Below, in pieces: positions 21,023-60,264 of a stretch of DNA of 62,232 bases; positions within the stretch are counted from its first letter, which is position 1, and each line of letters begins with the position of its first letter. This DNA is from Cryomorphaceae bacterium (lineage in GTDB: Bacteria; Bacteroidota; Bacteroidia; Flavobacteriales; Schleiferiaceae): NCBI GenBank assembly GCA_003566715.1, contig PXCF01000009.1, positions 1 to 62,232 on the forward strand, read 5' to 3'. The translations under genes and the position numbers were made by a program. Under the pieces are notes generated by a model, which did not search any database, was not told the origin of the DNA, and worked only from the letters and a program-made list of their open reading frames with translations.

Positions 21023-21076
21023 CTAAGACTAAGACTAAGACAATGACTAAGACTAAGACAATGACAATGACAATGA
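21023..21076. repeat. Hexanucleotide repeat upstream of the VanY-like gene
   Basis: Nine contiguous six-base units of two kinds, CTAAGA (five) and CAATGA (four), in the order CTAAGA x3, CAATGA, CTAAGA x2, CAATGA x3. The block ends 11 bases before the minus-strand ATG at 21011, in the 5' untranslated or promoter region. Confidence 0.9.
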
Positions 21077-21165
21077 CTGGAATGAAATCATAATTATGTT
21101 GGTCGTACTTTCAACATTCAAATCACATTATTTCAACCCCAGTCTATACAATTTTCTTATTGGCT

Positions 21166-21294
21166 AGGCTAGAAAGTTCGATAGCAAGGCTTGCGAACCC
21201 CGATAGCTATCGGGGTAAAATCAAGGAGTTTACATTAGTAAATGACTTGATTTTAGACTGAGCATAACGAAGCTATCGGACTTTCTAGACAGCC
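21166..21294 (-). repeat. 128-base multi-hairpin intergenic element, copy 1 (after icd)
   Basis: Read on the minus strand this starts six bases after the icd stop. An outer stem joins 21272-21294 (GCTATCGGACTTTCTAGACAGCC) to 21166-21185. Inside are a 10-bp hairpin TAAAATCAAG/CTTGATTTTA with an inner partly paired region, the perfect 18-base palindrome CCCCGATAGCTATCGGGG at 21198-21215 and a small GCAAG/CTTGC hairpin at 21184-21194. A diverged full-length copy lies at 52265-52390. No T-run follows, so it is not a simple terminator. Confidence 0.85.
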
Positions 21295-21300
21295 AAAGTG

Positions 21301-22524
21301 TTACAAGCGGTTTTTGAGTTCCTTATTTAAAGCCTCCAAGAACTCCTCCGTAGTGAGATAGTGTTCCGGCTTCATTTCACTTCCGTGAATACATAAAGCC
21401 AAATCTTTGGTCATCATGCCTTTTTCCACGGTATCAACGCACACACTTTCCAATGTTTGGGCAAAATTGATAAGTTCTTGGTTGCCGTCAAGTTTACCGC
21501 GGTGTGCCAATCCTCTTGTCCACGCAAAGATGGAGGCGATGGGATTGGTGGAGGTCTTTTTACCTTGTTGATGCTGTCTGTAGTGACGCGTTACCGTTCC
21601 GTGTGCTGCCTCGGCTTCTAGGGTTTTCCCGTCCGGAGTTACTAGTACAGAGGTCATCAGACCTAAAGAACCAAAGCCCTGCGCGACGGTGTCCGACTGT
21701 ACATCGCCGTCGTAGTTTTTACAGGCCCAAACAAATGCACCTTCCCACTTCAATGCAGAGGCAACCATGTCGTCGATCAAACGGTGTTCATAAACGATAC
21801 CTTCCTGGTCAAATTTTGCTTTAAACTCATTTTGATAGACCTCTTCGAAGATGTCCTTAAAACGACCATCGTATTTTTTTAGGATGGTGTTCTTGGTACT
21901 CAAATACAAAGGCCATTTCTTTTCCAGTGCCATATTGAAACATGAGCGGGCGAAACCGTAGATGGATTCGTCGGTGTTGTACATACTCATGGCCACACCA
22001 CCACCTTCAAAGTTATATACGTCAAAGGTTTGTGGTTCACTGCCGTCTTCCGGGGTGAAGGTCATGGTGAGTTTACCTTTGCCTTCAATCACGGTGTCGG
22101 TGGCTCTATATTGGTCTCCAAAGGCGTGACGGCCAATAACGATGGGTTTGTTCCAAGTGGTTACCAATCTCGGTACATTGCTGCAAATAATGGGTTCACG
22201 AAAAACGGTTCCACCGAGAATATTTCGGATGGTTCCGTTGGGCGAACGCCACATTTTTTTGAGTTTAAACTCTTCAACACGTTGCTCGTCGGGCGTGATT
22301 GTTGCACATTTGATTCCCACATTGTACTTCTTGATGGCATTGGCAGCATCTACGGTTATCTGATCGTCGGTGGCATCACGGCTCTCCATACCCAGGTCGT
22401 AGTACTTGATATCTAAGTCTACATATGGTAATATGAGTTCGTCTTTAATAAATTTCCAAATAATTCGGGTCATTTCGTCTCCATCGAGTTCTACAACCGG
22501 ATGAGCTACTTTGATTTTTTGCAT
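21301..22524 (-). CDS. icd: NADP-dependent isocitrate dehydrogenase (type II)
   Basis: 407 residues, the length of the eukaryote-like homodimeric class. It oxidatively decarboxylates isocitrate to 2-oxoglutarate in the TCA cycle, making NADPH. Typical blocks: [22 protein letters not shown] at the N-terminus, [33 protein letters not shown] and [21 protein letters not shown]. It lies 17 bases after dnaX and is probably last in tkt-dnaX-icd. The 128-base structured element begins six bases past its stop. Confidence 0.95.
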
Positions 22525-34634: not shown

Positions 34635-36119
34635 ATGAAAAAAAAATACATACTTCTTCTTTTAAGTGGGCTTTTCTTTACCATAAATCTAATTGGACAA
34701 AGCTACCCCCTTCCAGAGTTGATATATTACAAGTTTGATGAAGATCCGCTTATTGTCAACGATGCCTCTAATCCCGTTGGCGTAAATCCAACTTTAATCA
34801 TTGGCAACGGCTTAACTTTAGGAGGGACCGGTATGTTTGGAACCGCTCTTCAGGGAACGGGAACGCCTAGTTCAACCAATAGAATAAGTACGGGGTGGGC
34901 GACTTCTCTTACTTCTTCATTTACCATAGGATTCTGGTCTAATATCACTACACCGAGCTCTACGCTGTGGTATATTTTTGGTGATAATACGGCATCCAGC
35001 TTTCGTTGTTTAACCAATGGTTCTGCAGGAGCTAATAACTGGATGTTGAGTTGCTTTAGCTGTGGCATGCCTGATGTAATTGCATTTAATGGAGCGGATT
35101 CTGGGGCTAATTACACACACTTTGTTTATGATGCGACAGCGTCTATGATGCGTGCATATGTCAATGGTGTAAAAGTTGATTCAGCGAATGTTATTGGTAA
35201 TGTGACATTATCAGGAAATAATTTTACCGTTGGCGCATATGGTTCAAGTACAGGTTTGTCCGGCTCTATGGATGAATTTAGACTATACAGTCGCGCGTTA
35301 ACCGATGCGGAAATTTTAGCAACGTACAACATTGAGTTAGGTGCCTGCTCAATGCCTACGAACGTTACCCTCGATTCTGCAGGTTGTGACGAACTAACCA
35401 TTTCTTGGGATTCCGATACAGGTGTTGTTGCAAGCTATTTAGAATACGGTCCTCCGGGTTTTATGCCAGGAACTGGAACATCGGTTTTAGCCTCAACAAA
35501 CCCTTTTACACTTTCAGGTTTATCACCAAACACCTTTTATGATATTTATGTGAGTGACAGTTGTTCACGTGGTCTAAGTGCGCCAAGCGATAGTTTGCCT
35601 GCATCTACCATACCACTTCCTTTGGGTTCTTTTACTTCGGTAGTTGTAGCGGTTACATTTAATGATGTTACTTATGAATTTGATGCATCGGCTTCAACAA
35701 ACACCAATTTTTATAATTGGGATTTTGGCGATGGTAACACAGGTACAGGAATGGTAACCAATCATACGTACACAGTAGATTCAAATTATACGGTAACGTT
35801 GGAAACGGAAGGTGAATGTGGTATAACTACCTTTACACAACCTATTATCGTTCGTGGTATTTCCGTAGATACTTGGGATGCACAAGGGTTTAAAACCCAA
35901 CCTAATCCTGTAAAAGATATTCTTTTTATTAATGCAAGTCGCTATAAAGGCAAGTCATACCACGTAAAGATTCTCGATATGTCCGGACGCAAGATGTATC
36001 ACGCTCGTGACGTTCAGGGCAATTCTGAAATAAACATGCTGAACCTGCCTGCAGGTACGTATATCTTGAACGTTGACGGTGAAAGTGGCGTTTTTCGACA
36101 AAAGCTTATCAAGCAATAA
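34635..36119 (+). CDS. Secreted LamG/FnIII/PKD protein with T9SS type A sorting domain, copy 1
   Basis: 494 residues. A signal peptide (LLLSGLFFTINLIGQ) is followed by a LamG/concanavalin-like lectin fold at about 25-235 (MDEFRLYSRALTDAEILATYN at its end). A fibronectin III-like domain covers 240-325 (LSPNTFYDIYVSDSC) and a PKD domain 330-405 (YNWDFGDGNTGTG). The C-terminal type A sorting domain contains NPVKDILFINASRYKGKSY and NLPAGTYILNVDGESGV. The sorting domain sends it through the type IX system to the surface or medium. LamG suggests carbohydrate or protein binding; there is no catalytic domain. It is the tandem paralogue of the next gene. Confidence 0.9.
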   Translation: MKKKYILLLLSGLFFTINLIGQSYPLPELIYYKFDEDPLIVNDASNPVGVNPTLIIGNGLTLGGTGMFGTALQGTGTPSSTNRISTGWATSLTSSFTIGFWSNITTPSSTLWYIFGDNTASSFRCLTNGSAGANNWMLSCFSCGMPDVIAFNGADSGANYTHFVYDATASMMRAYVNGVKVDSANVIGNVTLSGNNFTVGAYGSSTGLSGSMDEFRLYSRALTDAEILATYNIELGACSMPTNVTLDSAGCDELTISWDSDTGVVASYLEYGPPGFMPGTGTSVLASTNPFTLSGLSPNTFYDIYVSDSCSRGLSAPSDSLPASTIPLPLGSFTSVVVAVTFNDVTYEFDASASTNTNFYNWDFGDGNTGTGMVTNHTYTVDSNYTVTLETEGECGITTFTQPIIVRGISVDTWDAQGFKTQPNPVKDILFINASRYKGKSYHVKILDMSGRKMYHARDVQGNSEINMLNLPAGTYILNVDGESGVFRQKLIKQ

Positions 36120-36270: not shown

Positions 36271-37749
36271 ATGAATAAAATTTATTCGCTTTTGGTTCTG
36301 GGCGGACTTTCATTAAGTCTCAATCTTTTTGGACAAGCGGTTCCCGAACTTATTTATTACAAGTTTGATTCCGGTTCAAGCATTGTCAACGATGCATCCA
36401 GTCCTGTTGGGACCAATCCCACAACCATTACAGGTACAACGCTTACCGTTGGAGGAACGGGGATGTTTGGAACAGCACTTTTGGGTACAGGAGGAACGAG
36501 TTCGGCACACAGAATTGCCACGGGTTGGGCGACTTCTTTGAGTTCGTCCTTCACCATTGGCTTTTGGACAGATAACATCACGTCCAGTTCAACCTTGTGG
36601 TATGTATTTGGAGACAATACAGCTTCAAGTTTACGTTGCTTCACAAATGGTGTAGCCGGCGCCAATAACTGGTTGTTGCGTTGTACCGGCTGCGGAATGC
36701 CGGATATTACAGCCACCAATGGTGCCACGACTGGTTCAAACTACACGCACTTTGTGTATGATGCAACGGCTTCAATGATGCGTGCCTATGTGAATGGTGT
36801 CAAAGTTGATTCTGCTGCAGTTACAGGAACTGTTTCTCTGTCCGGAACAGAATTTACCGTTGGTGCATATGCATCTAGTTCAGGTTTATCGGGCTCCATG
36901 GACGAGTTTAGACTTTACAACCGCGCTCTCAGCGATGCAGAAATTTTAGCGACATATAATATTGAGTTAGGAGGTTGTTCATCGCCTGATAATGTCGCAC
37001 TTGACACTGCCGGTTGTGATGAACTCACCATCTCATGGGATTCCGACACAGCCGCAGTTGGAAGCGTTGTTGAATATGGTCCTACTGGCTTCACCCCGGG
37101 AACAGGAACAACAGTTTTTACTGCGTCAAGTCCTTTTACCATTACCGGTTTGTCACCCAGCATGGATTATGATATTTATGTGAGTGATAGCTGTACCAGT
37201 GGCCTAAGTGCGCCAAGTGATAGTTTGCCTGCCTCTACTTTACCTCTACCTGTCGGTTCATTTACTTCAACCGTAGTGACGGTAACGTTTAATGATGCTG
37301 AATATGAGTTTGACGCAACGGCTTCAACCGATGCCAATACCTATAACTGGGATTTTGGCGATGGTAACACAGGTACGGGAATGGTGGTCAATCATACGTA
37401 TACGATGGATTCAACCTATACGGTAACATTGGTAACGGAAGGTGACTGTGGATTTGATACCATTTCGGAACCGGTTGTTGTTCGTGGTATTTCCGTAGAT
37501 ACTTGGGATGCACAAGGATTTAAAACGCATCCCAATCCTGTAAAAGATGTTCTCTTTATCAATGCCAGTCGTTATAAAGGTCAGTCCTATAGCGTTACAC
37601 TTGTCGACATGTCTGGACGTATGATGTATCACGCTCGTGATGTTCAGGGCAATTCTGAAATAAACATGCAGAACCTACCTGCAGGTACGTATATTTTGAA
37701 CGTTGACGGTGAAAGTGGCATGTACCGACAAAACGTCATCAAGCAATAA
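36271..37749 (+). CDS. Secreted LamG/FnIII/PKD protein with T9SS type A sorting domain, copy 2
   Basis: 492 residues with the same order as its neighbour: signal peptide, LamG, FnIII, PKD, type A sorting domain. The two align end to end with few gaps. Near-identical stretches include THFVYDATASMMRAYVNGVK, YNWDFGDGNTGTGM and RGISVDTWDAQGFKT, with DNA identity highest at the 3' end. The divergence is concentrated in loops of LamG and FnIII. It is presumably an adhesin or matrix protein. It ends in a bidirectional terminator shared with the convergent phosphohexomutase gene. Confidence 0.9.
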   Translation: MNKIYSLLVLGGLSLSLNLFGQAVPELIYYKFDSGSSIVNDASSPVGTNPTTITGTTLTVGGTGMFGTALLGTGGTSSAHRIATGWATSLSSSFTIGFWTDNITSSSTLWYVFGDNTASSLRCFTNGVAGANNWLLRCTGCGMPDITATNGATTGSNYTHFVYDATASMMRAYVNGVKVDSAAVTGTVSLSGTEFTVGAYASSSGLSGSMDEFRLYNRALSDAEILATYNIELGGCSSPDNVALDTAGCDELTISWDSDTAAVGSVVEYGPTGFTPGTGTTVFTASSPFTITGLSPSMDYDIYVSDSCTSGLSAPSDSLPASTLPLPVGSFTSTVVTVTFNDAEYEFDATASTDANTYNWDFGDGNTGTGMVVNHTYTMDSTYTVTLVTEGDCGFDTISEPVVVRGISVDTWDAQGFKTHPNPVKDVLFINASRYKGQSYSVTLVDMSGRMMYHARDVQGNSEINMQNLPAGTYILNVDGESGMYRQNVIKQ

Positions 37750-50879: not shown

Positions 50880-51980
50880 ATGAAAGAATGGACCCTTCAA
50901 TCTCTTGAATTGCTGAATTTCAAGAGCTACCCACACGCCAATTTCGATTTTGGTGCGCGGATTAACTGCATCGTAGGACCCAATGGTGCCGGAAAGACCA
51001 ATGTGCTGGACGCCATTTATTACTTAAGCACGGGTAAGAGCTATTTTCAATCTTCAGATGCGCCCAATATCCACCATCAGCAACAGCAGATGTCCATTCA
51101 AGGTCTGTACGCCCACGATGGGGAAGAGGAGCGCATTCACATTGGCTTGGAAAAGGGGCAGCGCAAAAAAATCTACCGCAATGACGAGCTTTACAAGCGC
51201 TTGGCCGACCACGTTGGACTCATTCCTGTGGTTATGATCAGTCCGTCCGATCGCGACTTGATTGCCGAGGGGGGAGAGGTGCGACGTCGTTTTATTGACG
51301 CCACCCTTTCGCAAACCGATCCGGTCTATTTTGACCACCTTTTGCAGTACCATCAAGCGCTTAAACAACGCAATACTATGCTGCGCAATGGCATGGGTAA
51401 AGACAACTCTCTGCGGGAGATTTACGACCATCAACTGGTGGAACACGGCTTGGAAATATTCAAAAGACGCCGGGCTTTCTCCCAAACTTTTGCCGAAGAT
51501 GTGGCCAAACACTACGAGGCCATCAGCAATGGCGCCGAAACGGTGACCTTCGCGTATGCCACCAAAATAGAAGAAGACCATTATGCCGAGCAGTTAAAAG
51601 AGGCATTACCCAAGGATCTGGTCATGGAATATACCACCTTTGGCATTCACAAAGACGATCTTAAACTGAGCATGGACGGGCGACTGATTAAACGCTACGG
51701 CTCGCAAGGTCAGCAAAAGACCTATCTCATAGCCCTTAAGTTGGCGCAGTATCACTATCTGCACCAGGTCAAAGGATTCAGGCCCATTTTACTGCTCGAC
51801 GATATTTTCGATAAACTGGACGCCGAACGCGTTCACCGCATGATTGACCGCGTGAACCAAGGGGTATTTGGACAGATATTTATTACCGACACCCATCCTG
51901 AGCGTGCCCAAGCCATCGCAGAAGCCGAAGGCGTAGAGGCCAACATCATTCACGTTGAAAGACAAAACCAACCGGTATGA
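50880..51980 (+). CDS. recF: DNA replication/repair protein RecF
   Basis: 366 residues. An SMC-like ATPase that loads RecA at gaps. Walker A GPNGAGKT at 33-40, a Q/signature region with GQQKTYLIALKLAQ, and Walker B/D-loop ILLLDDIFDKLD. The ATG at 50880 is preferred to the TTG three codons earlier (50871), which lies in the promoter box. The stop overlaps the DUF721 ATG by four bases (ATGA). Confidence 0.95.
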   Translation: MKEWTLQSLELLNFKSYPHANFDFGARINCIVGPNGAGKTNVLDAIYYLSTGKSYFQSSDAPNIHHQQQQMSIQGLYAHDGEEERIHIGLEKGQRKKIYRNDELYKRLADHVGLIPVVMISPSDRDLIAEGGEVRRRFIDATLSQTDPVYFDHLLQYHQALKQRNTMLRNGMGKDNSLREIYDHQLVEHGLEIFKRRRAFSQTFAEDVAKHYEAISNGAETVTFAYATKIEEDHYAEQLKEALPKDLVMEYTTFGIHKDDLKLSMDGRLIKRYGSQGQQKTYLIALKLAQYHYLHQVKGFRPILLLDDIFDKLDAERVHRMIDRVNQGVFGQIFITDTHPERAQAIAEAEGVEANIIHVERQNQPV

Positions 51981-52261
51981 GTAACCTAAAAGGCATCGGA
52001 CAAATCGTAAAGCAAATCGTTCGCGAAAACGGATGGGAAGACAAGATGGAAAAGCAAAAGCTGTACATCGCCTGGGACGAAGTCATGGGTCCGGCCGTCG
52101 CCAGACGCACCGACAGTATCATCCTGCAAGGCCGTAAATTGGTCATCAAAATCGACTCCGCCCCATTAAAACACGAATTGACAATGCAGAGAAATAGAAT
52201 CATTGAGTTGTTGAAGGAACATACAGGAAAAGATATGGTCGACATCGTTGTTATTCGTTAA
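51977..52261 (+). CDS. DUF721 (DciA-like) protein
   Basis: 94 residues. KQIVRENGWEDKMEKQKLYIAWDEVMGPAVARRTDSIILQGRKLVIKIDSAPLKHELTMQRNRIIELL is the DUF721 core, the short version lacking the long tail of DciA. Relatives (DciA) load or activate the replicative helicase in bacteria without DnaC. It is coupled to recF by ATGA overlap, which fits a replication role. The second copy of the 128-base element starts three bases after its stop. Confidence 0.87.
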   Translation: MSNLKGIGQIVKQIVRENGWEDKMEKQKLYIAWDEVMGPAVARRTDSIILQGRKLVIKIDSAPLKHELTMQRNRIIELLKEHTGKDMVDIVVIR

Positions 52262-52264
52262 TGC

Positions 52265-52390
52265 GGTTGTCTATAAAGCCCAATAGCTGTGTTATGCTCA
52301 TCTGAAAAATGCTCATTTACTTCATGTAAACTGTGCTTTTTCCCCCGATAGCTTTGGGGTAGCGAGCCTTGCTCTCGGACTTTCTAGCCT
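52265..52390 (+). repeat. 128-base multi-hairpin intergenic element, copy 2 (after DUF721)
   Basis: Begins three bases after the DUF721 stop and aligns over its whole length with the minus-strand reading of 21294-21166. Shared blocks include GTTATGCTCA, CATTTACT, ATGTAAACT, CCCCGATAGCT, GCCTTGCT and ACTTTCTAGCCT. The outer stem (52265-52287 with 52369-52389), the central hairpin, a GC-rich hairpin at 52343-52359 and the small GCGAG/CTTGC hairpin all remain possible despite many substitutions. It fills most of the gap before aroC. Confidence 0.8.
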
Positions 52391-52435
52391 TACTAATTTA
52401 CATTGAAAGTATTTGAATACGTTTTTTAAAAAAAT

Positions 52436-57890: not shown

Positions 57891-57976
57891 TTTTTGCAAA
57901 AATAACGGTTGTAAGCGTACGGTCTATTGGTAAACGCGTTGAATTGGATAACACAGGGGAGAGGGGGAGGTTCATT
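57891..57976 (+). repeat. 86-base direct repeat, left copy
   Basis: Matches 60051-60136 at 83 of 86 positions (differences at 57947, 57955 and 57957), exactly 2160 bases apart. Both ends are sharp. It contains the presumed -7 box of the DUF2452 gene (TATTTTTG on the minus strand). The 301-base gap 57882-58182 holds this copy and about 200 bases in which I see nothing else. Confidence 0.95.
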
Positions 57977-59874: not shown

Positions 59875-60264
59875 GTTAAGTCACACTATTTTTCAGAGAA
59901 ATTGCTTTAAATAACAAACATACATATTTATTTTCCGGTAATACTGTTTACTAAAGGTATTGAATTCGACAGATGTAAAATCTGGTTTGTGTAAGTTTTC
60001 CACAGTCCAGTAAATTTCTCAGTGTTTATGTTACTTAACCAATTTGACTGTTTTTGCAAAAATAACGGTTGTAAGCGTACGGTCTATTGGTAAACGCGTT
60101 GAATTGAATAACACGGTGGAGAGGGGGAGGTTCATTGGGGGGCTTGCTCTAGCACTTAAAAATATTATGATATTTATAATCTGATTTAAAATGAATTACA
60201 TTTATTCATGTTTTATAAAGTTAAAATTAATTCTAATTTCAAATTGTCCTAATTTTGGGGAAGG
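59875..60264. other. Gene-free AT-rich gap with the right direct repeat
   Basis: This 390-base stretch holds the upstream region of the AlbA_2 gene, the right 86-base repeat, and about 130 bases of very AT-rich sequence (60137-60264) in which I recognise no gene, structure or promoter with confidence. Confidence 0.6.
60051..60136 (+). repeat. 86-base direct repeat, right copy
   Basis: Second copy of 57891-57976, with three substitutions and no gaps. Flanks on both sides differ from the left copy. It lies 177 bases upstream of the AlbA_2 start, on the side from which that gene is transcribed, and carries the same TATTTTTG box (minus strand, 60064-60057). Confidence 0.95.

Follow-up and report, generated by a model that had tools for sequence, protein, structure and literature searches.

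A previously undescribed MITE-like repeat family that often abuts stop codons in a genus of Cryomorphaceae

What is the strongly folding stretch of DNA that directly follows the icd gene of a Cryomorphaceae bacterium, and why does a diverged relative of it lie behind the stop codon of a second gene 31 kb away? The window analysed here is the whole stretch of 62,232 nucleotides of contig PXCF01000009.1 (assembly GCA_003566715.1). A first-pass annotation made from its sequence alone had described an element of about 128 bases and had offered two readings of it, a transcribed 3'-UTR element or a mobile palindromic element with a strong target preference. We followed both readings through the window's own genome and through related genomes.

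Two copies in the window and the family they belong to

Gene names (icd, DUF721 and aroC) were taken from the first-pass annotation and from our inspection of the encoded proteins. Read on the minus strand, positions 21158-21298 fold with -58.2 kcal/mol compared with -26.0 +/- 3.4 kcal/mol for dinucleotide shuffles (z -9.35, 0/200 shuffles), which confirms the outer stem with enclosed hairpins that had been drawn on paper. The perfect palindrome of 18 bases and the diverged second copy were likewise recovered. The parts of the two copies are as follows.

21160..21296, minus strand: folded body of the icd copy, from the left inverted end (21280-21296 side) through the outer stem and two inner hairpins to the right arm ending at AGCCA (covariance model match 1-136 of 136, E 4e-39; fold z -9.35)
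21272..21296, minus strand: left arm of the outer stem including the left terminal inverted repeat (TTGGCTGTCTAGAAAGT in the icd copy; alignment A1 columns 1-25)
21216..21255, minus strand: middle hairpin (TAAAATCAAG ... CTTGATTTTA) with a conserved TTTAC/GTAAA inner stem (sequence; compensatory changes across copies)
21198..21215, minus strand: 18-bp perfect palindrome module CCCCGATAGCTATCGGGG, found in the 157-bp form and missing from the 143-bp form (sequence; alignment A1)
21160..21185, minus strand: right arm of the outer stem (GCTATCGAACTTTCTAGCCTAGCCAA; alignment A1 columns 116-141)
21140..21159, minus strand: expected place of the second (right) inverted end in the icd copy, decayed beyond recognition (10/17 matches, null 8-11)
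21301..21303, minus strand: icd stop codon (TAA), 4 nt before the left end of the element (ORF list, context table)
52263..52396, plus strand: second copy, 157-bp form, diverged, between the DUF721 ORF and aroC (covariance model match E = 8e-25; ORFs)

The second copy lies on the opposite strand and is 78% identical to the icd copy in a DNA search; folded alone, it is barely better than chance (z -1.72). Both copies follow a stop codon in the sense of the upstream gene, as had been noted: the left end lies 4 nt past the stop of icd (ORF 21301-22524, minus strand) and 1 nt past that of the DUF721 ORF (51977-52261, plus strand), with aroC (chorismate synthase, 52436) downstream of the latter copy. 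An Rfam scan of the window gave 0 matches at the gathering score. Behind the icd element, at 21023-21078 of the window, there are short tandem repeats (CTAAGACTAAGAC / AATGACAATGAC), and the orthologous place in genome G001 (L186) has GACGATGAC-type repeats directly 3' of icd, though without the element.

A DNA search of the window's own genome (G000; an assembly of 2.46 Mb in 153 contigs, 99.6% complete) returned 54 matches, about 30 of them near full length. The search for further copies by covariance model that the first-pass annotation had proposed as a check was also positive. With a model built from 53 copies and the best 55 candidates per genome scored, we found at least 41 copies in G000 at E <= 0.001, at least 19, 47, 30 and 12 in four other species of the genus, and 8 and 4 in two sister genera of the family, while none was seen among the best-scored candidates of 53 further genomes of the order. 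The core motif was also present in named relatives, which are genomes of Cryomorphaceae and Flavobacteriales assembled from metagenomes. Apart from the few copies in the two sister genera, the element is a dispersed repeat restricted to one genus of Cryomorphaceae.

Ends, target duplication and empty sites

The commonest full length of intact copies in relatives is 157 bp; without the palindrome module it is 143 bp, and with an extra hairpin 178-184 bp. These copies have inverted ends of about 17 bp (GTGNCTGTCTATAAAGT / GAGCCTGTCCATAAAGT) and run from GTGNCTGTCTATAAAGTCC... to ...GAACTTTCTAGCCTAGCCAC and on to the second inverted end ...ACTTTATGGACAGGCTC, with an identical 6-mer on each side. 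The extent of about 128 bases is thus valid for the folded body and not for the whole element, the right end of which lies outside that interval, about 21 bp past AGCCAC in relatives. Many copies with the exact 157- or 143-bp spacing match in 6/6 duplicated bases. The duplicated word is TANNTA, in the form TAATTA in 23 of the 41 copies scored as intact (right-end score of at least 12/17 and duplication match of at least 5/6), the remainder being mostly TAAATA, TAAGTA, TAACTA and similar. The mobility of the window copies has to be argued from relatives because they themselves have no recognisable right end and no recognisable duplication.

The window's species has the element at L014, whereas the corresponding site of a sister species (L071) is empty, with the break exactly at the stop GAATAG. 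At the 3' end of icd the element is absent in four relatives, two of them with an apparent ordinary terminator there, and it is absent from the DUF721-aroC gap in three relatives; in two of these three the genes are separated by a few nt only. Both window copies hence occupy sites at which the relatives checked have no element. A length below 200 bp, dispersed copies without coding capacity, terminal inverted repeats, a target duplication and empty sites are all characteristics of MITEs, and all were found here. Because of the inverted ends, the 6-bp duplication and the empty orthologous sites we read the element as mobile. Together with the dispersed copies and the genus-restricted range, these features uphold the earlier suggestion of a mobile palindromic element with a strong target preference. 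That it is a MITE-like, non-autonomous element of the cut-and-paste type of about 157 bp is likely in our judgement, which applies jointly to the whole of the explanation that we favour.

Such an element would be moved by a transposase supplied in trans. An autonomous transposon with the element's ends was not found in the genus among PF01609 (DDE_Tnp_1) loci or TIR-pattern matches. The PF01609 transposase loci of the genus were rejected as parents, being without the element's ends and having different inverted repeats where these are present. A broken transposase near element fragments on contig 43 of G000 proved unrelated, and solo GAGTCTGTCTATAAAGT ends in genome G002, considered as an insertion sequence, turned out to be truncated element copies. 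A pair of elements 1.43 kb apart on contig 97 of G002 was tried as a composite transposon and dismissed, each copy having its own duplication and a TPR/peptidase-like gene lying between them. Two observations were made at these places: on contig 43 of G000 (L099, 28641-29003) a broken DDE transposase gene is inserted near the end of a secreted-type protein reading frame, and on contig 97 of G002 (L074, 5356-6945) the two elements flanking the TPR/peptidase-like gene are intact, in the same orientation and each provided with its own TAATTA duplication.

Covarying fold, unlike interiors and the loss of one end

The paired bases of the fold covary between copies. RNAalifold on a mixed alignment of both forms returned the inner five pairs only, since the middle of the 143-bp form has no column-by-column alignment with that of the 157-bp form; a swap test of stem halves was used instead. 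Cognate halves of the middle stem pair far better than swapped ones (z -11.7 with 0/20,000 permutations for the 143-bp form, z -4.5 for the 157-bp form), and the same comparison gave z -4.9 for the outer stem, three positions of which are mismatched in most copies. Double-sided changes were seen in 12 of 34 pairs compared with 6.0 in shuffles, and in the orthologous copies L019/L072 three base pairs are changed on both sides. The strand opposite to the gene sense folds better (-45.7 vs -37.3).

Several copies that occupy the same site in two species differ in their interior. L006 and L158 have nearly identical arms around an interior replaced by a different hairpin; L007 and L162 have kept the left arm and the tail, with a partly diverged right arm and a different interior; and L107/L046 pair a 157-bp-like form bearing an extra hairpin with the 143-bp form. 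Like arms around unlike interiors at orthologous sites suggest that copies have exchanged sequence.

Identity to the consensus is 90-92% for the arms of the G000 copies but has fallen to 51% (background 39%) for the tail with the right inverted end; in G002 the tail is still 85% identical. Since the copies had been found by their body, a symmetric test of the end words was needed: TIR-pattern words with at most one mismatch occur in a left:right ratio of 27:1 in G000 and, by hand classification of the pattern matches, of about 39:36 in G002 (Fisher p 8e-6). No two copies in G000 are near-identical (identity to the nearest neighbour: median 86%, maximum 89%), so that there has been no recent spread in this genome. 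With a right end decayed to near random, the copies of G000 would no longer move. A decayed right end next to a kept folded body suggests that selection or gene conversion has acted on the latter.

Gene conversion or another exchange between copies could keep the arms alike in otherwise inert mobile DNA, a reading that competes with the selection part of our explanation and not with the MITE part. It would dispense with selection because orthologous copies, as in the three pairs above, have the same flanks and outer arms and different interiors. However, it agrees poorly with the lack of near-identical pairs in G000 and with the occurrence of compensatory changes, and homologous recombination is inefficient between arms of 30-37 nt that are about 85% identical. 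We regard exchange as the sole cause as conceivable but doubtful.

In the explanation that we prefer, the folded body is most likely kept by a useful hairpin or at least by exchange between copies. Given the constraint seen on the body, the fold may have a function, at the RNA or at the DNA level. The arms are conserved alike whether or not a copy lies in a sense 3'-UTR (p 0.99), which weakens the case for a role in mRNA. A copy in a 3' untranslated region would be transcribed together with its gene and form a stable hairpin that could, by analogy with ERIC, modulate mRNA decay. It is a tentative proposal, one that we would not call probable, that a tiny transposon with stop-rebuilding ends and exchangeable hairpin cassettes has left immobile copies which the host adopted as a selected fold, whatever their gene context. 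A separate hairpin, GGGTYAGC-n-GCTRACCC, was noticed nine times in G000, either inside the interior of an element, alone or just beside a copy (L175 on G000 contig 41 near 23120, L087, L090, L086).

Placement at stop codons and comparison with known repeats

Genes for the placement counts were called with a purpose-made simple hexamer gene caller in place of a standard annotator. In 55 of the 121 copies examined, a gene on the same strand has its stop no more than 4 nt from the left end; the placement that had been described as fixed is therefore frequent, but not fixed. It has two sharp modes: either the duplicated word supplies the whole stop with its first three bases, or its TA does so together with the element's own G. 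Insertion into a target word that contains TAA or TAG would let the gene keep its stop: the TA at the end of the target and the initial G of the element together form TAG again. Among the intact insertions, 23/41 are on a stop at one end, whereas 5.4/38 are expected for the same words across noncoding DNA (p 5e-10) and 13.8/38 when only occurrences of these words up to 80 nt from a stop are counted. Statistically, insertions on stops are more numerous than the target word would predict, also when the comparison is confined to sites shortly downstream of genes. With a stop codon inside the target word TAANTA, the placement after stops is largely explained by this word and by the avoidance of coding DNA and of regions upstream of genes; a part of the excess is left over.

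A regulatory RNA element of the 3'-UTR, held at gene ends by selection for the stability or processing of the upstream mRNA, would make the placement itself functional. Such a function would agree with the many copies that abut a stop in sense, with the orientation of the 41 intact insertions at stops (17 left-only vs 3 right-only, p 0.003), with the strong covariation and with a body kept in immobile copies. However, a large part of the placement is accounted for by the target word and the sense bias is modest: orientation is even at the palindromic TAATTA targets (5 left vs 4 right) and away from stops (16 sense vs 20 antisense). Furthermore, copies in sense 3'-UTRs are not better conserved than others, and it is the gene-antisense strand that folds better. 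The placement can therefore be accounted for without an RNA function, and we consider this alternative unlikely.

An intrinsic or bidirectional terminator could be suspected from the GC-rich palindrome after the stop and from the ordinary terminators that follow icd in two relatives. Yet the element has no T-run, as had been pointed out before, a terminator detector placed a site inside only 1 of the 55 stop-adjacent copies, ordinary terminators behind the element are no rarer than behind other genes, and the genes on either side of the DUF721 copy nearly adjoin in two relatives, with a few nt between them; termination is thus a very improbable role. A REP/REPIN-type element mobilised by a RAYT (REP-associated tyrosine transposase) would also be palindromic, extragenic, dispersed and gene-adjacent, but it can practically be dismissed, as the Y1_Tnp profile gave 0 matches in G000, G001 and G004 and the element has 6-bp target duplications and inverted ends, neither of which is known as a feature of single-strand REP/IS200-type transposition.

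The reading as a MITE-like element invites comparison with other repeats that fold and are of comparable size. ERIC/IRU (127 bp) is co-transcribed with the upstream gene and has an orientation-dependent effect on the stability of its mRNA in Yersinia (PMC2229807), and erosion of its ends has been reported in Vibrio cholerae (PMC2267715). ERIC resembles the new element in being short, dispersed, foldable and MITE-like with inverted ends, but differs in sequence, host phylum and target, which is TA instead of the 6-bp TAANTA. The new element in turn lands on stop codons, has several exchangeable inner hairpins and has lost one end in the window's species with the fold kept. NEMIS/Correia of Neisseria is MITE-like and hairpin-forming and has two size classes (PMC2229807); it is alike in kind and in the size classes and differs in target and stop-codon preference, the sequence comparison being that of the Rfam scan alone. 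The repeats bcr1 of the Bacillus cereus group and YPAL of Yersinia are similar in length (147-169 bp) and also have a conserved secondary structure (PMC2267715), and YPAL likewise has filled and empty sites (PMC2229807). However, YPAL duplications are 3-26 bp long and its inverted repeats are internal, and a stop-codon junction is described for neither repeat in PMC2229807 and PMC2267715. RUP of Streptococcus pneumoniae is a MITE with inverted ends whose movement is attributed to an insertion sequence acting in trans (PMC2229807). Its presumed parent is known (IS630-Spn1, target TA), whereas for the element with its TAANTA target no parent was found in the genus among the loci searched. By their descriptions in PMC2229807 and PMC2267715, ERIC, NEMIS, YPAL, RUP and bcr1 are set apart, as none of them has the element's target or a stop-rebuilding junction. 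Literature searches on MITEs of Flavobacteria, on MITEs with stop codons and on repeats of Cryomorphaceae returned nothing on the family. The family is previously undescribed and MITE-like, and is a variant of this kind through its stop-codon junction and its exchangeable hairpins.

The element is a natural case of mobile DNA that would settle harmlessly at gene ends, the stop being left by the duplicated target and the element's first base. The five species with their old, young and empty sites allow a test of whether MITE hairpins are domesticated after the loss of mobility, a question that is open for ERIC and similar repeats, and they also allow the study of inner hairpins swapped in place. 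For annotation, 3'-end hairpins of this kind should be taken as transposon copies and not as terminators.

Several copies (L003, L161, L019, L072, L010) flank a tRNA-Arg gene on one side or the other at a distance of 5-9 nt, and some of these are at orthologous sites in two species. The window contains further repeats of other kinds: 14-bp tandem repeats (TTCAGTATTCAGTG) at two places 1.7 kb apart (1-31 and 1756-1887), an 86-bp direct repeat with 97% identity at 57891-57976 and 60051-60136, 2.16 kb apart, and a direct duplication of about 400 bp with about 70% identical DNA at 34711-35120 and 36341-36750, 1.63 kb apart, which probably represents related neighbouring genes.
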